Source of the DNA: Spirochaetales bacterium
GTDB taxonomy: Bacteria; Spirochaetota; Leptospiria; Leptospirales; Leptonemataceae
NCBI GenBank assembly: GCA_015075425.1
Contig: JABTUL010000004.1
Span: 62,001 to 126,000 of the forward strand
Direction of reading: 5' to 3'
Length of the DNA stretch: 64,000 nucleotides
The translations under genes were made by a program, and so were the position numbers. The notes below the pieces were generated by a model that was not told where the DNA came from, made no database searches, and saw nothing but the letters and a program-made list of their open reading frames with translations. Below are positions 32,459 to 53,651 of the stretch, piece after piece (positions within the stretch are counted from its first letter, which is position 1; every line of letters begins with the position of its first letter).

Positions 32459-34225
32459 CTAAAGCCGTAAAACCATAATGGTCGCGTCATCAGCCGCCTC
32501 TTCGCCGGATCGAAACTCGGCCACTGCGGCAAAAATACTGTCAATGATCTCAAGCGGCGGCCGGCTCTTTTCGCGCAGCACAAGCTCAAAGAGCCTCTCT
32601 TCACCAAAATCCTGGAAAGAGGCGTTGTGGGCCTCAGTAATGCCATCCGTGTAAAGGATGAGCAGGTCTCCCGGATCATAAGGAAACATCCTTTCCAGAT
32701 ACTCAGAGCCCTTAAAAATTCCCAGTGGTGGCCCTTTGGCAGAAAGCGATTCTATACGGTTGGAATGCATGCGCACAAGGATCTGGTGATTGTGCCCGGC
32801 ACTGGCCAGGCGAACCCGATTCATTTCCCGTTCCAGCTGGATCAGCATCACCGTAACAAAAAGCCCCATACGGGACTGGGCGTAGATCTCGCGATTGACC
32901 GTAGTCAGTGTGGAAACAGGATCCAGGTGCCTGGGTATTTGTCCGGAAAGCAGAGTTTTAGAATACTCCATAAAAAGCGCGGCCGGAACGCCCTTCCCGG
33001 CAACATCGGCCATAACCACGGATATGCGCTGGTCACTGTGGTACAGAAGGTCATAAAAATCTCCACCCACTTCTTTGCAGGCTTCATAGCGGGTCGCCAC
33101 CTGAACACCGGCCACGAGGGAAGGAATTTTTGGCAGGGAATTTTTCTGGATCAATGCTGCTGTTTCCAGATCCTTCTTGTAGTCGCGTATCTGACGCTCT
33201 CTTTCCCGGGCCAGGGTGCGCGAGAGGGCATCGGCCAACTGGCCAGCGACTGTCGACAGCACTTTTAGTTCAAATTCATCAAAAATTTGATTAGTTTTCT
33301 TATCGGCGACGCTCAGCGCGCCCACACTTTCTCCGTCCTTGATAATCGGTACACAGATGAAAGATCCGGTGCGGTAGCGGTCTGCTGCAACCAGGCCCAG
33401 TTCTTTTTGCGCATCGCGAATGAGCATCCCCTCCCCGGATTCAAGAACCATGGGAATCACTTTGCTGGCCGTGCCAATCAAGCGCTCCCCTTCTTCGATT
33501 TCAAAACCCCGATTCTTAATAATACGATAATCTTTGCTGCCCGCTGATGCCAGCACAATGGAAACACGTTCGACCTCCAGAACTTCCGCTATGGCCTGTA
33601 GAATCTGGTCCAGGATAACATCAAGATCATCCTCAACATGAATACTCTGCGCTATTCTGTAAACGCAGTCCAGCTCTTCCATTCGATTCTGTAAATCTAC
33701 ATATAATTTACGGTTGTAGATGGCCAGCGCGGCCATATTGGAAAGATAGGTCAAAAGCCGGGTGTCCCCGGCATCAAAATGCCGGCCGTCCGTTGTGTTT
33801 ACCACCTCAAGAACGCCAACAAGATTACCCATGGTCAGCATGGGGACGGCCAGTAAATTGCGCGTTTTAAATCCAATCGACTCATCAATCTCGCGCAGCA
33901 CGCGGCTATCGTTCTGTGCATCGTTCACCACAATGGCCTGACGCTCAAGTCCACAGGCTCCGGCAATTCCTGAGCCGAGCGGGATGGTCCTCCTGGCAAG
34001 GAGTGCTCCCCTCTGCCCGCGAGCAATGTCAAAGATCAATTCCTGTTTTTCCTGATCAAAAAGGAGGAGGGAACTGGCCTCGGTGGAAAGAAGCTCCCGG
34101 GCCGTATCCATGATGATCGTCAAAAGCTCATGCAGGTCCATGGCTGAATTGATGCGCATGGTTATATCGTTAATGCGCGTTAAGGAAATCTGGGCGGCCA
34201 CTGCTACGTTTATCGGCAAAATCAA
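32459..34225 (-). CDS. GAF-GAF-PP2C (RsbU/SpoIIE-type) protein phosphatase
   Basis: 588 residues from a TTG at 34225; a GTG at 34201 is an alternative. Two GAF sensor domains lie at ~25-175 (LHELLTIIMDTARELLSTEA, then LLAVPMLTMGNLVGVLEVVN) and ~195-345 (LDVILDQILQAIAEVLEVER, then FICVPIIKDGESVGALSVAD). A PP2C domain follows at ~375-588, with the metal-binding acidic residues in EVGGDFYDLL, VMADVAGKGVPAALFM, ILYTDGITEAHN and EAADDATIMVLRL. Such enzymes dephosphorylate anti-anti-sigma factors in partner-switching pathways. The ATPase at 11187 could belong to such a pathway, but this is inference. It is divergent from the voltage-sensor-like gene. Confidence 0.93.
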   Translation of the reverse strand: MILPINVAVAAQISLTRINDITMRINSAMDLHELLTIIMDTARELLSTEASSLLLFDQEKQELIFDIARGQRGALLARRTIPLGSGIAGACGLERQAIVVNDAQNDSRVLREIDESIGFKTRNLLAVPMLTMGNLVGVLEVVNTTDGRHFDAGDTRLLTYLSNMAALAIYNRKLYVDLQNRMEELDCVYRIAQSIHVEDDLDVILDQILQAIAEVLEVERVSIVLASAGSKDYRIIKNRGFEIEEGERLIGTASKVIPMVLESGEGMLIRDAQKELGLVAADRYRTGSFICVPIIKDGESVGALSVADKKTNQIFDEFELKVLSTVAGQLADALSRTLARERERQIRDYKKDLETAALIQKNSLPKIPSLVAGVQVATRYEACKEVGGDFYDLLYHSDQRISVVMADVAGKGVPAALFMEYSKTLLSGQIPRHLDPVSTLTTVNREIYAQSRMGLFVTVMLIQLEREMNRVRLASAGHNHQILVRMHSNRIESLSAKGPPLGIFKGSEYLERMFPYDPGDLLILYTDGITEAHNASFQDFGEERLFELVLREKSRPPLEIIDSIFAAVAEFRSGEEAADDATIMVLRL

Positions 34226-34262
34226 AGCTCTAAACGGTCCAGAATTTGCCGATACAGATAGC

Positions 34263-35348
34263 GTGAAGTTATTCCGGGCTGTACGCCACCTGCTGATTCA
34301 GATCCTGGGCCACCCGGCCTACAATTTTCTGGCCACTCTGGCAACAGCAGGAAGCATCTGTCTGATTTTTATACCGGCCTTTTTTGATTTGAGCCTGGAG
34401 GGGTCGCGACGCCTCCTTGATCTGGACCATCTCTTGCTTCTTTTGTTCTCCGTTGAGGCTGCGCTGAAATTTATAGCTTCCGGTCGTAGATACCTCCTGC
34501 GGCTGCCCTTCTTCATTGATCTGGCAGTGATTGCCCCGCTTTTTTACTATGTCCTCTGTCAGGAGCTCTATGCACGCGGCTTTATCCTGGATGTTCAGGC
34601 CTGGCAGGAGTTTCCGGGGCTTGATATCCTGAAAGGAGCTCGTATTTTCCGTTTTCTTTACCTTTTCCATTTTTTCTATTCCCTCAAACAGATGGGGCTT
34701 TTTGTCGAAGAGTCAAGGTCCGCAGCCAAAGAGCGGATTTTTGGTGGAATAGCTGCCATTCAGTTCAGCTTCGTCCTTCTTGCTGGCATGGCCAGCTCCT
34801 GGTTTTATGCCAGCCTCAATGAAACCCAGAGACAGACCCGAATTGAACAAATCTCCCAGCACGCGACGGACTACGGGCTGGAACGCACCTATGCCGCCTA
34901 CAAAGAAGAGGTTCTCTATGTGCGCCAGGCTGCCCTGGAAGGGAGCTTTGAAATCAAGAGCCTGGACCCGGCCTATGTTTCGGCTCATTTCCTCTATAAA
35001 AGAGACTACATCCAGATCGATGGGGTGACTCCGGGCGGCACCATCCAGATCAGCTTCCGCGATCTGGTGCAAAATCAGCGCAAGATCGAATTGCTTGTGC
35101 TCTTCATCGGGGCTGTTGTAATCGTTACGCTTCTGTTTGGTCTGAATTACTACTTAAACCAGATTGTCATCCATCCGGTCAGTCGGGCCATGCGGGTCAT
35201 TGAACTGCGCATGGCGGGCGAGGAGCTTGAACACAGTCTGCACGAGGAACAAATCCCCTCTGAAATCACTGCGCTGATCCATAAAGTGGATCTTCTCTAC
35301 CAGCAGATGCGTGAACCCGCTGAATTCATAGAAGCAGTGCCGCAATAA
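34263..35348 (+). CDS. voltage-sensor-like (VSD) / periplasmic domain / HAMP-like membrane protein, copy 1
   Basis: About 361 residues from the GTG at 34263. The frame is open further upstream, but there it is antisense to the phosphatase; the true start is uncertain. Four N-terminal helices match a voltage-sensor domain: S2 LLFSVEAALKFIASG, S3 LPFFIDLAVIAPLF, and S4-like DILKGARIFRFLYLFHFF with Lys/Arg/Arg/His. No pore loop or selectivity filter follows. Instead there is a fifth helix (~165-190), an extracytoplasmic segment of ~100 residues, a sixth helix (ELLVLFIGAVVIVTLLFG) and a HAMP-like end beginning QIVIHPVSRAMRVIELRMAG. The protein at 52527 has the same plan. Function unknown. Confidence 0.72.
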   Translation: MKLFRAVRHLLIQILGHPAYNFLATLATAGSICLIFIPAFFDLSLEGSRRLLDLDHLLLLLFSVEAALKFIASGRRYLLRLPFFIDLAVIAPLFYYVLCQELYARGFILDVQAWQEFPGLDILKGARIFRFLYLFHFFYSLKQMGLFVEESRSAAKERIFGGIAAIQFSFVLLAGMASSWFYASLNETQRQTRIEQISQHATDYGLERTYAAYKEEVLYVRQAALEGSFEIKSLDPAYVSAHFLYKRDYIQIDGVTPGGTIQISFRDLVQNQRKIELLVLFIGAVVIVTLLFGLNYYLNQIVIHPVSRAMRVIELRMAGEELEHSLHEEQIPSEITALIHKVDLLYQQMREPAEFIEAVPQ

Positions 35349-37791
35349 CGCCCTGCCCCTTTGCCAGCGATCCCATGGAACGGGCAAAGGGATTCAAGGG
35401 CCGGTCCGCCGTCCATTTCTCAGCGGTTCCCGTATGAATGGCGGTGACCAGAAGATCACCGGGCTTGATGGCCCCGCTTTCTGCCGTAACTTTCACGGGT
35501 ACCAGCCCGTACAGGGCAACGGGCCGGGTCTCTTCCCCTTCTTTACGGGCGTTGAGCAGGAGAGATACCGATGGCTGAAAAATTCCCATGACTGCAGCAT
35601 TGCGGCTGCGCGATCGGGCCAGCCAGCCATCACGCGAGGAAGCAACCAGAATATCGCCCTCTTCCAGGATTTCCTGGTTCTCGATAAAAAAGTAGGCACC
35701 CAGGCTTGCCTGGCGATGATCCCCCGAGCACTCTACTGTTCCCTGAAAGGCAGAAAGTCCGAGCGCCAGTATGGCCCGGCCTGATGTGGCAATCCCCTGC
35801 CATTCCGAATGAGCGCCAGCGACCAGGGCAAAATCCTGTCCGGAAAACAGTCGACCTCCCGGTCCTTTGAGGCTGGCGCCGGAAATCCCCTCGCCAGAAT
35901 GAGAAAGGCCACTGATTCCCGATTTTTCGCCATAACCCAGTACTCCCTGCGCACCCTGCCCGACAACGCCAGCTGCTCCTTCATTGACTCCATGGATGGG
36001 GCTGTGATCGAACGGAGGCGGATGGATTCCCTCATAGGTTTTTCCTGTTTCTGCTTTGAGCAAAAGCAGGCCCGTATGACTGGAAAATTCATGCTCAACG
36101 GGTGCGTAGTCATGTTCATGGCTTAGCGGCGGGCGGGCATCAGTCAAGCGGGGGTCCTGGGCTTGGACGGCCCGCCCTGCCAGAGTACTTCCCGGCGGAG
36201 CCAGTTCCACGATCCCCGGTGCTTCTTCACTGGCCAGCTTGAGCCGACGATCATGCCCCTGCACCACAACGCCAGCCCGATCCTCTCCATTGGCTGCCAG
36301 TTCCACAATGCCGGCTCGCTCTTCTGTTGCCGGCATGAGCCTCGGGTCACTGCTCTGTACCGCTGCTTCATTTTCTGTTTCCAGCAAGCGAGCAAAACGC
36401 ATGATACCGGCCTGCTCCGTCGTCGCTTTGCGTAAGCGACTGTCGTTGGCCTGTACCACATCGCCGGGCTTATCTGCACCGTCGTGTGATAGACGTACAA
36501 TTCCATGACTGGATTCACTGGCCGGCCGCAGTCGACGATCATGTCCCTGAACCACAACTCCAGGCCTGTCCTCTCCGTCCGCGGCCAGTTCTACAATGCC
36601 CCGGCTTTCTTCCGTTGCCGCCTTCAGGCGGTCATCATCGGATTGCAACGCATGAGCCCGACGGGACTCATTGTTGCGGGCCAGCCGTACAATGCCTGGC
36701 AGATCTTCGCTGGCATATTTCAGCCGACGATCACTTCCCTGCACAGCAACTTCGGGACGGTCCTCCCCGTCACGAGCCAGTTCCACAATACCTTTCATTT
36801 CTGTCGTGGCGTCGCGCAGCCGGCGGTCACTGCCCTGGACCACAATGCCTTCGCGGACTTCACCATCCATGGCCAGTCGCACAATACCGGAGCGCAGCAC
36901 GGAAGCATAAGGCACAGGTTCCGTCTGCTGGCGCGTTTCAAACAGGTCAGGAGCAGCGTAAAGCTCTATTTCTATCAATTGTGATATATATTTACCTTCA
37001 CGTGTTCGTGCGCCCTCCAGAATGATAAGACGCAAATAGCGTACGTTAGTGGGGATGAAGCGCCAGCGGTACCATGTGCCCGGTTCGGCCAAAAATCCAT
37101 TTTCCTCAAAGAGATTGTGCCAGGCGATATTGTCTTCGCTATAGGTAATACGAAATACTTCCGGGAAGAAAGTTTCCCGGTCGTTTTTGCTCAGCAGGCG
37201 GATTTCTGAAACACGGTTCACCGCTCCCAGGTCCATCTGGATAAATTCTTCACGTTTCTGCGATCGCAGCGAGCTTGACCAGCCATATTCCGGCCGCCCA
37301 TCAATTAAATTTTCCCGCACCCACAATCGATCCAGTTCACTGGATACTTCCAGATCTACAAGACCGGAGATCATCAGCCTGAAGGCCCCGAAGGCACTGA
37401 AGTATTTCCCGCTGGAATTGGTTGCATCCGCAAGAAAAAGAAATTTTATATATTTTGTTGTTGTAAGGGCAAAGTTCCAGCTCATGGTGTTGGAAAGACC
37501 GGGCTTGAAATCGCTTTCTTTGAGGATGGGCTCCCAGACCAGTCCATCTGCTGAAACTTCAAACCGGAAAGTTCCCGGAAAAAAATTCCGGTGCTCTGGA
37601 TGGGTTTCAATCTGGATAGCATTGAAGGCTACCTGTCCCTCGAAGATGCCGATGCAACTGACCAGTGTTGGAGTATCCCATTCGGGACTCTGCCAGGCCA
37701 GTATACGACCGGAGTTATCTTCAGTCCGGCCGGGAGCCTGCCATTCAGAAAAGAGTAACAGATCGGGATGGGAAATTCTTACGGATTCCAT
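35326..37791 (-). CDS. discoidin-domain protein with eight 32-residue repeats and tail-spike-like C-terminus
   Basis: 821 residues, with no signal peptide. Residues ~5-145 and ~150-285 read as two F5/8-type C (discoidin) domains (FRFEVSADGLVWEPIL; FRITYSEDNIAWHNLF), which usually bind sugars or lipids. Residues ~297-551 are eight repeats of 32 residues with consensus ATEE--GIVELA-DGEDR-GVVVQG-DRRLK. The last 270 residues are Gly-rich (GVVGQGAQGVLGYGEKSGISG) and end in a domain like the autoproteolytic C-termini of phage tail spikes (GLVPVKVTAESGAIKPGDLLVT). The overall form suggests a fibrous surface or phage-tail-like adhesin. Its stop overlaps the end of the convergent VSD gene by 23 bases, and its start lies 12 bases inside the Rep-like gene. 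Confidence 0.75.
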   Translation of the reverse strand: MESVRISHPDLLLFSEWQAPGRTEDNSGRILAWQSPEWDTPTLVSCIGIFEGQVAFNAIQIETHPEHRNFFPGTFRFEVSADGLVWEPILKESDFKPGLSNTMSWNFALTTTKYIKFLFLADATNSSGKYFSAFGAFRLMISGLVDLEVSSELDRLWVRENLIDGRPEYGWSSSLRSQKREEFIQMDLGAVNRVSEIRLLSKNDRETFFPEVFRITYSEDNIAWHNLFEENGFLAEPGTWYRWRFIPTNVRYLRLIILEGARTREGKYISQLIEIELYAAPDLFETRQQTEPVPYASVLRSGIVRLAMDGEVREGIVVQGSDRRLRDATTEMKGIVELARDGEDRPEVAVQGSDRRLKYASEDLPGIVRLARNNESRRAHALQSDDDRLKAATEESRGIVELAADGEDRPGVVVQGHDRRLRPASESSHGIVRLSHDGADKPGDVVQANDSRLRKATTEQAGIMRFARLLETENEAAVQSSDPRLMPATEERAGIVELAANGEDRAGVVVQGHDRRLKLASEEAPGIVELAPPGSTLAGRAVQAQDPRLTDARPPLSHEHDYAPVEHEFSSHTGLLLLKAETGKTYEGIHPPPFDHSPIHGVNEGAAGVVGQGAQGVLGYGEKSGISGLSHSGEGISGASLKGPGGRLFSGQDFALVAGAHSEWQGIATSGRAILALGLSAFQGTVECSGDHRQASLGAYFFIENQEILEEGDILVASSRDGWLARSRSRNAAVMGIFQPSVSLLLNARKEGEETRPVALYGLVPVKVTAESGAIKPGDLLVTAIHTGTAEKWTADRPLNPFARSMGSLAKGQGVIAALLL
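36139..36903 (-). repeat. eight tandem 96-bp coding repeats
   Basis: The DNA encoding the eight 32-residue units of the discoidin protein. Units 2, 4 and 7 are closest to each other (GIVELA-DGEDR). Units 3, 5 and 6 have diverged. The strict 96-bp period keeps the frame, so unequal crossing-over could change repeat number. Confidence 0.75.
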
Positions 37792-48624: not shown

Positions 48625-50091
48625 ATGCGTCAACTGGCTGTTCTTTCCTGTCTGATCTTTTTCCCGCTGGCGGCCAGCGATTTTGACATTGCCCGCACGG
48701 CCGTCGTGAAGATTGATTCGACTGCCCTTGTGCATTCCTATCAGAGTCCCTGGAAGCAACCGGTGGTTCAGCGCTCAGGTGGAACCGGTTTTGTCATTGC
48801 TGGCCAGCGTATCCTCACCAACGCACACGTAGTTTCCCAGGCGACCATACTGCGGGTGAAGCGACCGGATCACCAGCGCGACTACCTGGCAAAAGTTGAA
48901 TTCATTGCCCATGACTGTGATCTGGCCCTGCTCCGCGTTGATGAAGCGGAATTTTTCCAGGGAGCGGTGCCTCTGGCTATTGGGGAGACGCCAAAGCTGC
49001 AAACACCGGTAACGGTCATTGGTTTTCCCATTGGTGGCAATCGTGAATCCATCACCAGGGGCATCGTTTCCAGGCTGGGCATGGATGTGTACAGTCATTC
49101 GGGAGTGGATGCCCACCTGACCATCCAGGTGGATGCCGCAATCAATCCGGGCAATTCCGGCGGGCCGGCCCTTTACGATGGCAAAGTGATCGGCGTGGCC
49201 TTTCAAGTGTATTCGCGGGGAGAGAATCTGGGCTATCTCATTCCGCCGGATGTTATCGGGAAGTTTCTCACGGACATAAAAGATGGAAAGTATGATGGTT
49301 ATATTGAACTCGGCGTGGTGGATATGCCCACAGAAAATGAGACGGTGCGCCGCTACTACGGCCTTGAAGGCATGCCGCGGCCCATGAGCGGAGTCGTGGT
49401 ACGCCGGATTTTGCCCGGTAGCTCTGCGGACGGCCAATTGAAAGTGGATGATGTGATTGTTGCTTTGAACGGTCAGCCCATTTCTGAATCCGGTGATATT
49501 TTCAGCGATGGCCGCCTGGTGAACTACATCGAACTCATTGATAACGTAAGCGCCGGTACCGCCATCAGGATGACCGTGCTGCGCGCGGGGAAAAAGCTCG
49601 ATTTAGATTTCCCTGCGCGCCGCATGAGTCTCATTGATTTTCAGCGCATGAATTATGAAAATCCACCCGAATACTGGATCACTGCCGGACTAGTTTTTCA
49701 GCCGGTGGATGCGAGTCTCATGCAGGTGTACGGGCGCAAGTGGACACAGGAGGGCAGGTTGACCCAGTTGTATCGCTACGGTTACTTTCTCTCGCATCAG
49801 CTCTTTGAAGAGGTCACTCACGATGTGGCCCTGACACGGCGTCTGGGGGATGAGGCCAATCTTTATGCGGAATCCTTTGAGGGTCAGCTGGTGGCGAAAG
49901 TGGACGGGGTTGCTGTTAAAAGTTTTAAACATTTTGTCGAGCTGGTCGCCCGTTCAAAGGGGGAATTCCTGGTGCTGCATTTCAGGGACACTGTGCGACC
50001 TCTGGTTCTACCCCGGGCCACTCTTGCCAGTGCCGATGCCCGCGTGCTTGGCCGTTACGGAATTCCCCGCCAGGGCCTGGTGCGCAAATGA
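48625..50091 (+). CDS. HtrA/Deg-family serine protease with PDZ domain
   Basis: 488 residues from the ATG at 48625; the frame is open upstream without a signal peptide. A signal peptide is followed by a trypsin-like domain with the complete triad: His68 (ILTNAHVV), Asp99 (HDCDLALL) and Ser178 (INPGNSGGP). A PDZ domain follows (MSGVVVRRILPGSSADG, VDDVIVALNGQPI), then a less conserved C-terminal domain. The layout (PDZ then an extra ~190-residue part) is like the Deg9-type of plants and bacteria. It should degrade damaged or exported proteins in the periplasm. Its stop overlaps the next gene by four bases. Confidence 0.93.
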   Translation: MRQLAVLSCLIFFPLAASDFDIARTAVVKIDSTALVHSYQSPWKQPVVQRSGGTGFVIAGQRILTNAHVVSQATILRVKRPDHQRDYLAKVEFIAHDCDLALLRVDEAEFFQGAVPLAIGETPKLQTPVTVIGFPIGGNRESITRGIVSRLGMDVYSHSGVDAHLTIQVDAAINPGNSGGPALYDGKVIGVAFQVYSRGENLGYLIPPDVIGKFLTDIKDGKYDGYIELGVVDMPTENETVRRYYGLEGMPRPMSGVVVRRILPGSSADGQLKVDDVIVALNGQPISESGDIFSDGRLVNYIELIDNVSAGTAIRMTVLRAGKKLDLDFPARRMSLIDFQRMNYENPPEYWITAGLVFQPVDASLMQVYGRKWTQEGRLTQLYRYGYFLSHQLFEEVTHDVALTRRLGDEANLYAESFEGQLVAKVDGVAVKSFKHFVELVARSKGEFLVLHFRDTVRPLVLPRATLASADARVLGRYGIPRQGLVRK

Positions 50092-51563
50092 AACGTTATC
50101 TTTGCCTGATTCTCCTGGCCACCTCACTGCCAGCACTATCTCTTTCTGATGAAACCATCGCCCGCAGCCTGGTTCAGGTGCGCGTGACCAAAGTGTTCTA
50201 CCAGCAGGCCCGGCCCTGGTTCAAGGATCAGGCGGAACCGTACACCATTACAGGGCTTGTGCTTCCAGGGGAGCGGATTTTAGTGCTGGCCCGTGATATT
50301 CGCAGCGCGCAAATTCTTGAAGTAACCAAGTTTTCCAGCTATGATCGCGCGCTGGCCACTGTGGTCATGGAAGATATCAATGCTAACCTGGCCCTGCTCA
50401 CGGTTACGGATCGCAACTTCTGGAAAGACTTAAGACCTGTGGAGCTGGCTGCAGAGAATGCCAGCCCTCTCTCGCGCGTCATGGCAGTGAAAATCGATGA
50501 TGCCTTTCGTGTCTATCGTGAGGAAGCCCGAATCATGGAAGTGATTCCGGCCGCAGACTACGGGTTTGCTTTCCTGCCTGTTGCCGTCTTTCGTACTTCT
50601 GAGCCTATTTTAAGTGGTGTCCTTTTTAAGGAGAATCAACTGGCCGGGTTTATTGGCTATGCCGATCGCGATAAAAAGGCGGAGGCGATTGGCGTGGACA
50701 CGATTCGGGCTTTTCTCTCCCGTCAGGGTCCTTCCTATCCCGGGTTTGTGGCTCAGGGATTGAATCTCGAGCCGCTTACCGATCCCGTTTTGCGATCCTA
50801 CTACAAATTGCCGGCTCATCGTTCCGGTGCTCTGGTGGTCCGGACCCTGCCCCACAGCAGTGCTCACGGCGTACTTCTCCGACAGGATATTCTTCTTTCT
50901 GTGGATGGCGTAAACCTGGACAACAGGGGGTTTTACCAGGACCCGCAAATCGGCAGGCAGCCGGCTCTCATGCTTTTTGCGCTGAAGGGATCCTCTCTGC
51001 GCTTACCGGGGGAAACGGTTCCCGTTGTGGTCTGGAGAGATGGCCGGGAACAGACTCTGAAAATGGTGCTGCGTTCCTATACCGGTCAGGCGGAACGGAT
51101 TCCCTGGCACGTAGCCGATCAGCCGGAATATGTGATAGAAAATGGTCTGGTTTTTCTGGAGCTGAGCATTCCCTACATCCGGGAGGTGTTGGGAGCTAAC
51201 TGGCAAAGTTCGCCCCATCACTTCAATTTCCTTGTCCGGGAAAAACGGTTTTATGACGACCAGGAGAAAGATCGGCCGGTGATTCTCGGTTCCGTCCTAC
51301 CCGATGAAAGCAACCGCAGTTATGAGAATTACGCCGGATCCGCGGTCGCGGAACTGGAAGGGCAGGCTGTGTTAGATCTGGCCGACTTCAAAAAACGCTT
51401 GGACAGTCTGGCCCGGGCGGGCAAACCCATGGCAAGTGTGATGCTTGCGGGGGGGCAAAAAGCCATTCTTTCCCTGAAAGACCGGCAGGGGATCAATGAT
51501 CGGATCCTTAAGCGCTACGGGATTGAGAAGCCCTTTCATTTGAAGCTCCGCCCGGACCGATAA
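50088..51563 (+). CDS. HtrA-like pseudoprotease (inactive paralogue)
   Basis: 491 residues with a signal peptide (LILLATSLPALSLS). It keeps the size and order of the upstream HtrA, including the PDZ region (SGALVVRTLPHSSAHG, RQDILLSVDGVNL) and the C-terminal part. The catalytic residues are lost: the NAHVV place reads VLARDI, the Asp place reads INANLALLTV, and the GNSGGP place reads SEPILSGVLF. I infer a non-catalytic partner, for example an adaptor or dominant subunit of the active protease. It overlaps the htrA gene by ATGA. Confidence 0.82.
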   Translation: MKRYLCLILLATSLPALSLSDETIARSLVQVRVTKVFYQQARPWFKDQAEPYTITGLVLPGERILVLARDIRSAQILEVTKFSSYDRALATVVMEDINANLALLTVTDRNFWKDLRPVELAAENASPLSRVMAVKIDDAFRVYREEARIMEVIPAADYGFAFLPVAVFRTSEPILSGVLFKENQLAGFIGYADRDKKAEAIGVDTIRAFLSRQGPSYPGFVAQGLNLEPLTDPVLRSYYKLPAHRSGALVVRTLPHSSAHGVLLRQDILLSVDGVNLDNRGFYQDPQIGRQPALMLFALKGSSLRLPGETVPVVVWRDGREQTLKMVLRSYTGQAERIPWHVADQPEYVIENGLVFLELSIPYIREVLGANWQSSPHHFNFLVREKRFYDDQEKDRPVILGSVLPDESNRSYENYAGSAVAELEGQAVLDLADFKKRLDSLARAGKPMASVMLAGGQKAILSLKDRQGINDRILKRYGIEKPFHLKLRPDR

Positions 51564-51597: not shown

Positions 51598-52527
51598 ATG
51601 GAAGAAACCGCAACGAGGATGGTCGATTTCGTGGACAGGCTCTGGACAAGCCCCAACCTGGGGCGGGCCTCAATCGTCCATAAAGAAAACAACATCCTGG
51701 CCTTTCTGCGCGAAAATCAGCCCCAGATCCGCTCTGTTCTCAAAAGGCCCGAGCTTTTTCCGGATAGAGACTGGGAGGAGGTTCTGCGTTTGTTTCTCGA
51801 AACTCTGGCTTTGCGAGTCATTGCAGCTCTGGAAGTCCGGGTGGATGCAGCTGTGGATCAAACCTTGCAGACGGATCTCCTGGCTCATTTTCAATCGGAT
51901 GGTCCTGTTTCAATCCGCCGCGATGATCTTAAAGCTATGATTCGTAGCCTTCTCCCGGGTAAGATTCTCCGCGATCAATACGCAGCCGTATTTGATGCCA
52001 TCAGCGGTCGTTTCTTTAGCCGATACGTCCCGGGGATTTTAAAAACACGGGGTGCTATCTACAATGAGCTGGTCCGGCGTGATCGCCTGATGAAACTGGA
52101 TCCATCTCTCCTTGCTGCTTATCTGGGCCTCGCCTCCCTTTTCCGTCCGCTATACTTTTTTTCGCCGGCCAACGATGACAGGAGCCTTTCGAGCGCAGCC
52201 ACGAATCAGGGCTTTGAGCAGGGTTTCTCTGATCTCATGAGCTGGCTGGGCAGTAAAGCGGGTCAGCTCCCGGAGCGTATTGTGCGACCGGGCCTCGAGA
52301 GTCAGCTGCGTGCTTATGATCACCCCGATCAAAGCGGTGCGGCCCGGCTTATTTCCATCATTGTATCCCGTGCGGCAGACTATGATCCCTACCAGAAAGT
52401 GGACAAGGGGGCTGAATCTCCCGATAAATCCTGGTTTAACATCCATCGCAGAAATGCTCGCTACTATGGCTTTGATGCGCTGTTTCTGGATGAACTCTAT
52501 CGAATTGCGAGCGAGGAAGGCTGGTAA
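51598..52527 (+). CDS. conserved hypothetical protein upstream of the VSD/HAMP gene
   Basis: 309 residues, soluble, largely helical, with no signal peptide. Blocks such as DWEEVLRLFLETLALRVIAAL and GFEQGFSDLMSWLGSKAG suggest a compact helical domain; a segment near residues 175-190 (LASLFRPLYFF) is hydrophobic but short. No family recognised. It overlaps the next gene by one base (TAATG), so the two proteins are made in equal amounts; a cytoplasmic partner of the membrane protein is inferred. Confidence 0.7.
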   Translation: MEETATRMVDFVDRLWTSPNLGRASIVHKENNILAFLRENQPQIRSVLKRPELFPDRDWEEVLRLFLETLALRVIAALEVRVDAAVDQTLQTDLLAHFQSDGPVSIRRDDLKAMIRSLLPGKILRDQYAAVFDAISGRFFSRYVPGILKTRGAIYNELVRRDRLMKLDPSLLAAYLGLASLFRPLYFFSPANDDRSLSSAATNQGFEQGFSDLMSWLGSKAGQLPERIVRPGLESQLRAYDHPDQSGAARLISIIVSRAADYDPYQKVDKGAESPDKSWFNIHRRNARYYGFDALFLDELYRIASEEGW

Positions 52528-53651
52528 TGGCTCTAAGAAAAAAGCAATCGCAGGATCATTTTCCCCTGCCTCTGGAATACCTGATTCTTATTGCCATAGT
52601 TCTTGTGGTCATCCATACCATCGTGGACGACCTGGCGCGCATCTACCACTGGCCGCATCGTCAAATTGTGATCCTGGCCATCATCGGTTTTGCCTTTGAT
52701 TTGTTTTTCTCCCTGGAGTTTGGGGCCCGGAGTTTCATCTCCTGGCGCGCCGGCAACTTCCGTCAGTATTTCTGGTATGAACGGGGTTGGGTGGATCTGC
52801 TGGCTTCTGTCCCGCTGCTCCTTTTAGTTTCCGGTCCGGCCATGATTCTCTATTTGAATCCAGAAATGGCCACGGAAGCTTCTACAAGTTTTCTGCATGT
52901 TCTCAAATCTGCCAAAGCGATACGGGTCACCCGTATTTTGCGTTTGATCCGGATTCTCAAGATTTTTGGTCGCATCCAGAATACCGATTCTGTGATGGCC
53001 AATCGTCATGTAGCTTCCATTGCCACGATCAGTGTGGTTAGCATTGTCCTTTGCCTCGTGACCGTGAGCGTGATTCCGGCCTTTCAGTATCATGACCTGG
53101 GAGCGCATCTAAAGGAGAGGAAGGCTGCTCTCGGGGCCTTGATAAAGGCGGGTGTATCGGAAGAGGCTTTGATTCGGACGATGCGTACGAGCCCCCACTA
53201 CCAGGACGTAATCCACCTTTCGAAAAACAACAATCTGCTTTATGAAAGCACTTCCCGGCATGAACTGCGCTGGACAGCTTATCCACGAGAACTGGATCTG
53301 GAGCAGGGTTACACGGTTTCTTTGAGTCATTACCAGGTAGATGCCCGTGAAGCTCGCTACAATCTCTTTGCCCTCTTTGTTATTTTGTTCCTCATTGGCG
53401 GCCTGATGTTTGTGTACACTGGACTTTTTGTGCGCGAGGTGGCGGATCCTGTATTTATCATGGATAAGGGGATGCGTTACTTTGACTATAACCTCGAGGT
53501 CCGCGTCCCGGATCACTGCGCTCAGGATGAAGTCTTTCAACTGGCTCGAGCTTACAACGCCCGCTGGCTGCCGCTCAAAAATCAGATCAATGATTTTCGT
53601 AAGCGTAAATCCGGCGGAAAATCGGTCTTGAGCGTGGACGACCTCCTGTAA
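52527..53651 (+). CDS. voltage-sensor-like (VSD) / periplasmic domain / HAMP-like membrane protein, copy 2
   Basis: 374 residues. Helices S1 (~17-35) and S2 (~47-68, with Asp58 and Glu64), S3 (ERGWVDLLASVPLLL, like the W-N-x-x-D-L segment of voltage-gated channels), and a textbook S4 at ~127-145 with basic residues at every third place (Lys127, Lys130, Arg133, Arg136, Arg139, Arg142, Lys145). No selectivity filter follows. A fifth helix, an extracytoplasmic segment of ~90 residues, a sixth helix (LFALFVILFLIGGLMFVYTG) and a HAMP-like tail (ADPVFIMDKGMRYFDY...DEVFQLARAYN) complete it. No kinase, cyclase or chemoreceptor domain is attached. Same plan as 34263-35348. Confidence 0.8.
   Translation: MALRKKQSQDHFPLPLEYLILIAIVLVVIHTIVDDLARIYHWPHRQIVILAIIGFAFDLFFSLEFGARSFISWRAGNFRQYFWYERGWVDLLASVPLLLLVSGPAMILYLNPEMATEASTSFLHVLKSAKAIRVTRILRLIRILKIFGRIQNTDSVMANRHVASIATISVVSIVLCLVTVSVIPAFQYHDLGAHLKERKAALGALIKAGVSEEALIRTMRTSPHYQDVIHLSKNNNLLYESTSRHELRWTAYPRELDLEQGYTVSLSHYQVDAREARYNLFALFVILFLIGGLMFVYTGLFVREVADPVFIMDKGMRYFDYNLEVRVPDHCAQDEVFQLARAYNARWLPLKNQINDFRKRKSGGKSVLSVDDLL

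Follow-up and report, generated by a model that had tools for sequence, protein, structure and literature searches.

In Ci-VSP, a poreless voltage-sensor protein, S4 is directly followed by a PTEN-like enzyme located in the cytosol. The archaeal Af1503 is a HAMP receptor without a fused enzyme, and HAMP domains are dimeric helical bundles that relay the movement of transmembrane (TM) helices. Few voltage sensors other than channels are known, and most of these are of animal origin (see also the review PMC13095418). In the literature that we searched, no description was found of a protein joining a voltage-sensor domain (VSD) to HAMP, or of the spirochaete family to which the gene analysed here belongs. 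This gene, which we call A, lies in a stretch of 64,000 nucleotides from the genome of a Spirochaetales bacterium (contig JABTUL010000004.1, positions 62,001 to 126,000; hereafter the window). A sequence-only reading of the window had presented A as a second VSD/HAMP protein, besides the one at 52527-53651, which we call B. That observation is confirmed; the open reading frame of A is real, and its parts are the following.

34263-35348, forward strand: protein A, a putative poreless voltage-sensor/HAMP membrane protein of 361 aa, with GTG start at 34263 and stop codon at 35346-35348.
34317-34691, forward strand: S1-S4 voltage-sensor-like domain of A, residues ~19-143 (Pfam Ion_trans and column counts).
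34725-34808, forward strand: S5 helix of A, residues ~155-182 (hydropathy; kept in alignment A1).
34809-35066, forward strand: loop of ~90 residues (~183-268), presumably periplasmic, that replaces the pore loop (alignment A1).
35076-35312, forward strand: TM6 and divergent HAMP of A, residues ~272-350, followed by a short tail and the stop (hhalign to HAMPs of the same genome).

The only Pfam family above cut-off in A is Ion_trans (residues 18-149, E 9.6e-9), which covers the S1-S4 part, while a search of NCBIfam and a phmmer search of the PDB with the A sequence alone were unproductive. Alignment A1, composed of 16 sequences of the A family and used as a profile, had matches in the PDB to 74 different sequences at E<=1; the 60 listed ones all belong to voltage-sensor proteins, with no matched stretch going beyond profile position 178, that is, S5. 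They include Shaker (2.5e-6), a NaChBac chimera (9.3e-6) and the voltage-sensor phosphatase 4g7v (2.3e-3). Like Ci-VSP and other poreless VSD proteins, A would couple S1-S4 to an element that is not a pore but, unlike Ci-VSP, it lacks an enzyme and continues with S5, loop, TM6 and HAMP. With the voltage-gated cation channels (Shaker, NaChBac, NavMs) it shares the S1-S4 fold and the pattern of S2 Glu, S3 Asp and S4 Arg, whereas it differs from them in having no pore loop or filter, a TM6 that runs into HAMP and only two to three charges in S4. The AlphaFold model predicted for A, built on an alignment of three rows, has a pLDDT of 55, too low to count; it contains a long helix (266-326) and another at 333-357, resembling TM6-HAMP, and Foldseek found no PDB match for it at E<=0.001, the top rows being mostly voltage-gated channels.

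In the window, S4 of A reads GLDILKGARIFRFLYLFHFF, with the Lys, Arg, Arg and His that the sequence-only reading had picked out. The acidic and basic positions of the domain are Glu65 in S2, Asp86 in S3 and Lys124, Arg127 and Arg130 in S4. Counted over 15 rows of A1 (the sixteenth, L028, is a fragment), Glu65 is present in 12 and Asp86 in 13, with Glu in the other two; position 124 is Lys or Arg in 10 rows, Arg127 occurs in 11 and Arg130 in all 15. S4 is the most conserved region of the protein, its mean entropy being 1.58 bits against 1.92 for the loop and 1.91-2.11 for S1-S3. The gene is present in 16 of 30 genomes of the order, all within the family of the window (16/22, own genome counted; 0/8 in the sister family), and is under purifying selection, dN/dS ranging from 0.10 to 0.26 in five relative pairs with saturated dS; a sixth pair yielded no dS.

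The search was widened to 392 genomes, all of Spirochaetota; the large searches, whether by protein or by profile, scored at most five candidates in each genome. Outside its own family, the A1 profile matched a frame of 576 aa in one genome, G099 (E 1.1e-25), which has the following layout.

L105:4962-6692, forward strand, equal to L061:631-2361, reverse strand: VSD-loop-TM-HAMP-HD-GYP in a single frame of 576 aa, with Arg-rich S4 (profile and Pfam).

Its domains are Ion_trans (E 1.4e-17), a weak HAMP (0.072) and HD_5 (7e-25), and its C-terminus bears the motifs HDLGK and HHEKIDGSGYP, which we take to be the HD-GYP signature. The same gene occurs on JAKSBL010000178.1 of 'MAG: Spirochaetes bacterium isolate MAG.183' (L105). 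The fusion, found in one of the 392 genomes, is the sole fused relative that emerged; a first scan of further contigs was unproductive and a second returned just the MAG gene again. A VSD-type membrane module can therefore be joined to an enzyme, as this one frame demonstrates. Like HAMP-HD-GYP receptors, the protein has HAMP and HD-GYP behind its membrane part, which is A-like, but its input would be a voltage sensor; A is devoid of such an output. The fusion, from an uncultured spirochaete, is a candidate voltage-controlled c-di-GMP phosphodiesterase and, joining the same receptor to a complete HD-GYP domain, points to a signalling role. Another frame, L062:1501-2460, is VSD-TM-HAMP-like with Arg-rich S4 and may carry an output domain, the contig ending inside its HAMP.

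With the membrane part of the fusion as query, matches were obtained in 101/392 genomes, many of them plain channels sharing the VSD only. Twenty longer matches were chosen for hydropathy, alignment and BLAST analysis. They show four to six segments over threshold; in each, a long loop precedes the last TM, and 19/20 extend at least 30 residues beyond that TM (the exception is L121). Alignment and BLAST split them into 16 proteins of B type (L106-L113, L115, L118-L123 and L125) and four of a group C (L114, L116, L117 and L124). Group C shares the VSD with A and B and has its own conserved upstream gene, which belongs to no Pfam family in L114; by hhalign, its tail matches neither HAMP (9.5%) nor the tails of A or B. 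The B type is represented in the window by a two-gene module.

51598-52527, forward strand: 309-aa partner of B, belonging to no Pfam family; its stop and the start of B share one base.
52527-53651, forward strand: protein B, relative of A with a canonical seven-charge S4 (profile alignments and column counts).

Direct comparison by BLASTP detects no relation between A and B (best E 0.64), while their profiles align by hhalign over 321 columns, the full length, with E 6.7e-14. When the halves are compared, the VSDs give 2.4e-8 and the parts after S4 7.6e-8, against 0.09-0.11 for mismatched halves; these E-values refer to one comparison each. By this profile evidence A and B form one family, inclusive of loop, TM6 and HAMP. 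The full-length alignment that the sequence-only reading had called for thus bears out its impression of a common domain order with little identity, and the family it had suspected from two diverged copies turns out to be larger than supposed.

The charge of S4 separates the two proteins: two to three basic residues in A, seven in B. In alignment A2, which has 15 rows (the 16 B-type proteins minus L112 and L121, plus B of the window), S4 has Lys or Arg at 127 and 130, Arg at 133, 136, 139 and 142 and Lys at 145, seven basic residues spaced every third position and present in 15/15 rows, as are the acidic Asp58, Glu64 and Asp90. S4 is the most conserved region of B (1.24 bits) and the loop the least conserved (2.64 bits). 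Judging from these columns, B is likely to be a functional voltage sensor and the input of its branch is most likely the membrane potential. The A2 profile matches 121/392 genomes at E<=1e-10, some matches being partial or of group C, and the B type is spirochaete-wide; tblastn of B against plasmids was unproductive. A partner of ~310 aa without Pfam family precedes B in 12/16 of the fetched B loci (L106, L107, L109-L113, L115, L118, L120, L122 and L125) and in the window, which suggests that the output of B goes through a separate protein. Upstream of the module, the window encodes a PDZ_3-domain protein at 50088-51563. A B-type partner gene beside A was sought and rejected, since at E<=1 the partner profile matches none of the ORFs in loci L017-L031, which are those of A.

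The C-terminal part of A deserves a separate consideration. As in Af1503-type receptors, it forms the HAMP end of a membrane receptor, whereas the input in A is a voltage-sensor-like domain and the HAMP is too divergent for Pfam, giving no match at E<=1. We used as reference 24 of the 28 HAMP matches from the window's own genome, each with its preceding TM helix, omitting the three weakest and L177, in which the match starts inside the profile. Aligned by hhalign to these 24 HAMPs, TM6 plus HAMP scores 83.8% for A (E 7.8e-6) and 93.9% for B (1.5e-7), with Pro and Glu of A in register; reversed sequences give 1-5%, and S1-S2 or S5-loop segments 0.1-2.2%. When TM6 is removed, A drops to a probability of 8.8% and B to one of 58%. 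Caution is thus due with the HAMP call in A, TM6 supplying part of the match. Within A1, Pro305, Leu315 and Arg316 are invariant and Glu320, Glu334 and Tyr346 nearly so. We consider the tail of A as HAMP-like but divergent; the HAMP proposed by the sequence-only reading stands at 84% when TM6 is included, and fails at the level of Pfam. It follows directly the last TM helix, as in HAMP receptors, and no output or catalytic domain lies downstream, the protein stopping ~11 residues after HAMP.

Taken together, these features make it fairly probable that A is a VSD-HAMP receptor in which the pore is lacking and the gating charge reduced, and not a channel. Its loop would face the periplasm and the protein would dimerise through TM6-HAMP. 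Given that HAMPs relay TM movement, a movement of S4, of the loop domain or of both would reach TM6, shift it and switch HAMP, which could then signal by touching another protein in the cytosol; we infer an output of this kind from the fact that A and B end at or near HAMP, that B has a partner and that one of the relatives has an enzyme fused to it. With a gating charge shrunk to two or three, A may sense voltage weakly or may have become a receptor depending mainly on its loop, and voltage sensing by A is uncertain.

This raises a question: Does A still sense voltage at all? A possible answer, to which we give less credit than to the VSD-HAMP receptor with reduced gating charge, is that it no longer does, S1-S4 being an inherited scaffold and A an ordinary receptor binding a ligand via the loop domain. 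The low charge of S4 would agree with such a loss, and so would the conservation of the loop, which in A is about that of S1-S3 whereas in B the loop is the least conserved region. Against it, S4 has remained the most conserved region of A, Arg130 is present in every row and position 86 is acidic in 15/15; moreover, no ligand or fold was found for the loop of A. That voltage sensing can be lost in the superfamily is suggested by the Brachyspira-like relatives of B. These form f14, one of the families matched by A2; another is f38 (Borrelia-like, genomes of 0.9-1.9 Mb).

L206:8753-11833, L207:8507-11581 and L208:9101-12175: Borrelia-like set of HAD phosphatase, partner, VSD-HAMP protein and 173-aa protein.
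L209:8514-10297 and L210:8313-10096: Brachyspira-like homologues with partner and TM6-HAMP tail kept (the tail still matches).

The partner profile matches with E 3e-23 to 8e-20 in f38 and with 6e-14 and 2e-10 in f14. Borrelia-like proteins have lost the S2 Glu and have S4 shortened to three Arg and one Lys; in the two Brachyspira-like loci the acidic residues of S2 and S3 have disappeared and S4 has lost its arginines but for one in its first position, while two His remain as well. Since tail and partner are kept throughout this erosion, the persistent core is TM6-HAMP with its partner, and the voltage sensor can erode.

In the three f38 loci, the 287-aa partner and the following B gene lie tail to tail with flaA-cheA-cheW-cheX-cheY genes; cheA is identified by Pfam in L206, the other names are what we presume from gene order, and the cheX-cheY part of L207 is unresolved in the ORF list. 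This order matches BB0668-BB0679 of B. burgdorferi, in which B would presumably be BB0674 and the partner BB0675; the literature searched contained no paper mentioning BB0673-BB0675. FliG occurs in 119/121 genomes matched by the B profile versus 348/392 overall, two lists compared by eye, and both exceptions are incomplete MAGs (88% and 73% complete). However, of the 44 genomes without FliG, 14 among the 20 listed come from one family, f49, so that the association may be close to a single evolutionary event; in f22, a large family that does have FliG, B is not matched at all. The link of B to motility is consequently weak. Voltage-dependent chemotaxis has reportedly been seen in Spirochaeta aurantia, and a broader proposal would make the superfamily the missing membrane-potential receptor of spirochaetes: B would read voltage via its canonical S4, and HAMP would relay it to the partner or, in one lineage, to HD-GYP, perhaps underlying that chemotaxis, with A retuned to a smaller charge. 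We regard this proposal, as a whole, as unlikely.

We now turn to the genes surrounding A.

32459-34225, reverse strand: GAF-GAF-PP2C (SpoIIE-type) phosphatase, divergent neighbour of A (Pfam domains).
34226-34262: intergenic gap of 37 bp between A and the phosphatase, where relatives have metF.
35326-37791, reverse strand: conserved F5/8-type-C protein of 821 aa in convergent orientation to A, the two overlapping by 23 bp.

Pfam agrees with the sequence-only reading on the GAF-GAF-SpoIIE/PP2C nature of the phosphatase, and the gap of 37 bases that it gave is correct for a TTG start at 34225; with other TTG or GTG codons within the first nine codons, the gap could reach 61 bp. The 821-aa protein, highly conserved next to A, has two F5/8C stretches and then a repeated motif. 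From the 37-base gap, shared regulation or a shared pathway of A and phosphatase had been proposed, and in a rival reading along these lines A controls the phosphatase. We took the flanks of 15 relatives of A, in which gene order is readable only as far as the contigs extend; two (L023 and L028) stop at contig ends, leaving 13 with both A and phosphatase. Most relatives keep the order SAHH, ArsR-methyltransferase, PP2C, metF, A, F5/8C protein, 265-aa protein, ParB and ParA, the names from SAHH to ParA being partly presumed from sequence. A and phosphatase do share this small block in 13/13 relatives, so that the neighbourhood is indeed conserved, and yet they are never directly adjacent, since metF lies between them in 13/13.

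The window is devoid of metF, while a metF of 38% identity lies on another contig of the genome. The divergent gap of 37 bp is therefore a secondary state, which arose through loss of metF, and the link to the phosphatase is probably an accident of synteny and of this loss. Three genomes, G003, G004 and G005, retain SAHH, ArsR-methyltransferase, phosphatase, metF and the F5/8C gene, which metF directly overlaps, and miss A; in G017 the contig terminates within metF, and whether A follows is not readable. The phosphatase, present in 26/30 genomes at E<=1e-100, including 7/8 of the sister family that has no A, does not need A, and A evolves much faster than it does. Furthermore, the window is syntenic as one segment from ~28.6 to 42.7 kb, which renders the adjacency of the two genes uninformative. 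A shared promoter in the gap is also rejected: the gap contains no promoter-like site, and the two such sites in 33900-35700 (versus 1.0 expected) both sit inside the A gene. With metF in between and the phosphatase persisting without A, a special pair is rejected, and control of the phosphatase by A is quite improbable.

Least of all do we credit the idea that A is an ion or proton channel, conducting through an S5-TM6 pore or the voltage sensor itself, which we hold to be very improbable: Ion_trans and the channels among the structure matches speak for it, but these concern the S1-S4 domain and the similarity stops at S5, the loop of ~90 residues has no selectivity filter and TM6 runs on into HAMP. 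A channel pore is rejected: in all rows of A, B and C the S5-TM6 stretch is free of K+ or Na+ filter motifs, and two chance matches in these rows fall in other loops.

For the biology of spirochaetes, the family is of interest on several counts. A bacterial receptor with a loop domain and HAMP in place of a pore would show membrane potential wired directly into bacterial signalling, and the A/B family supplies testable genes for this possibility. The spirochaete-wide module of partner and B (51598-53651) is a better subject than A for studying bacterial voltage sensing. In turn, the graded loss of charge, from seven in B to two to three in A, three Arg in the shortened S4 of Borrelia-like proteins and almost none in Brachyspira-like ones, constitutes a natural series with which one can ask what a voltage sensor does once voltage sensing stops.
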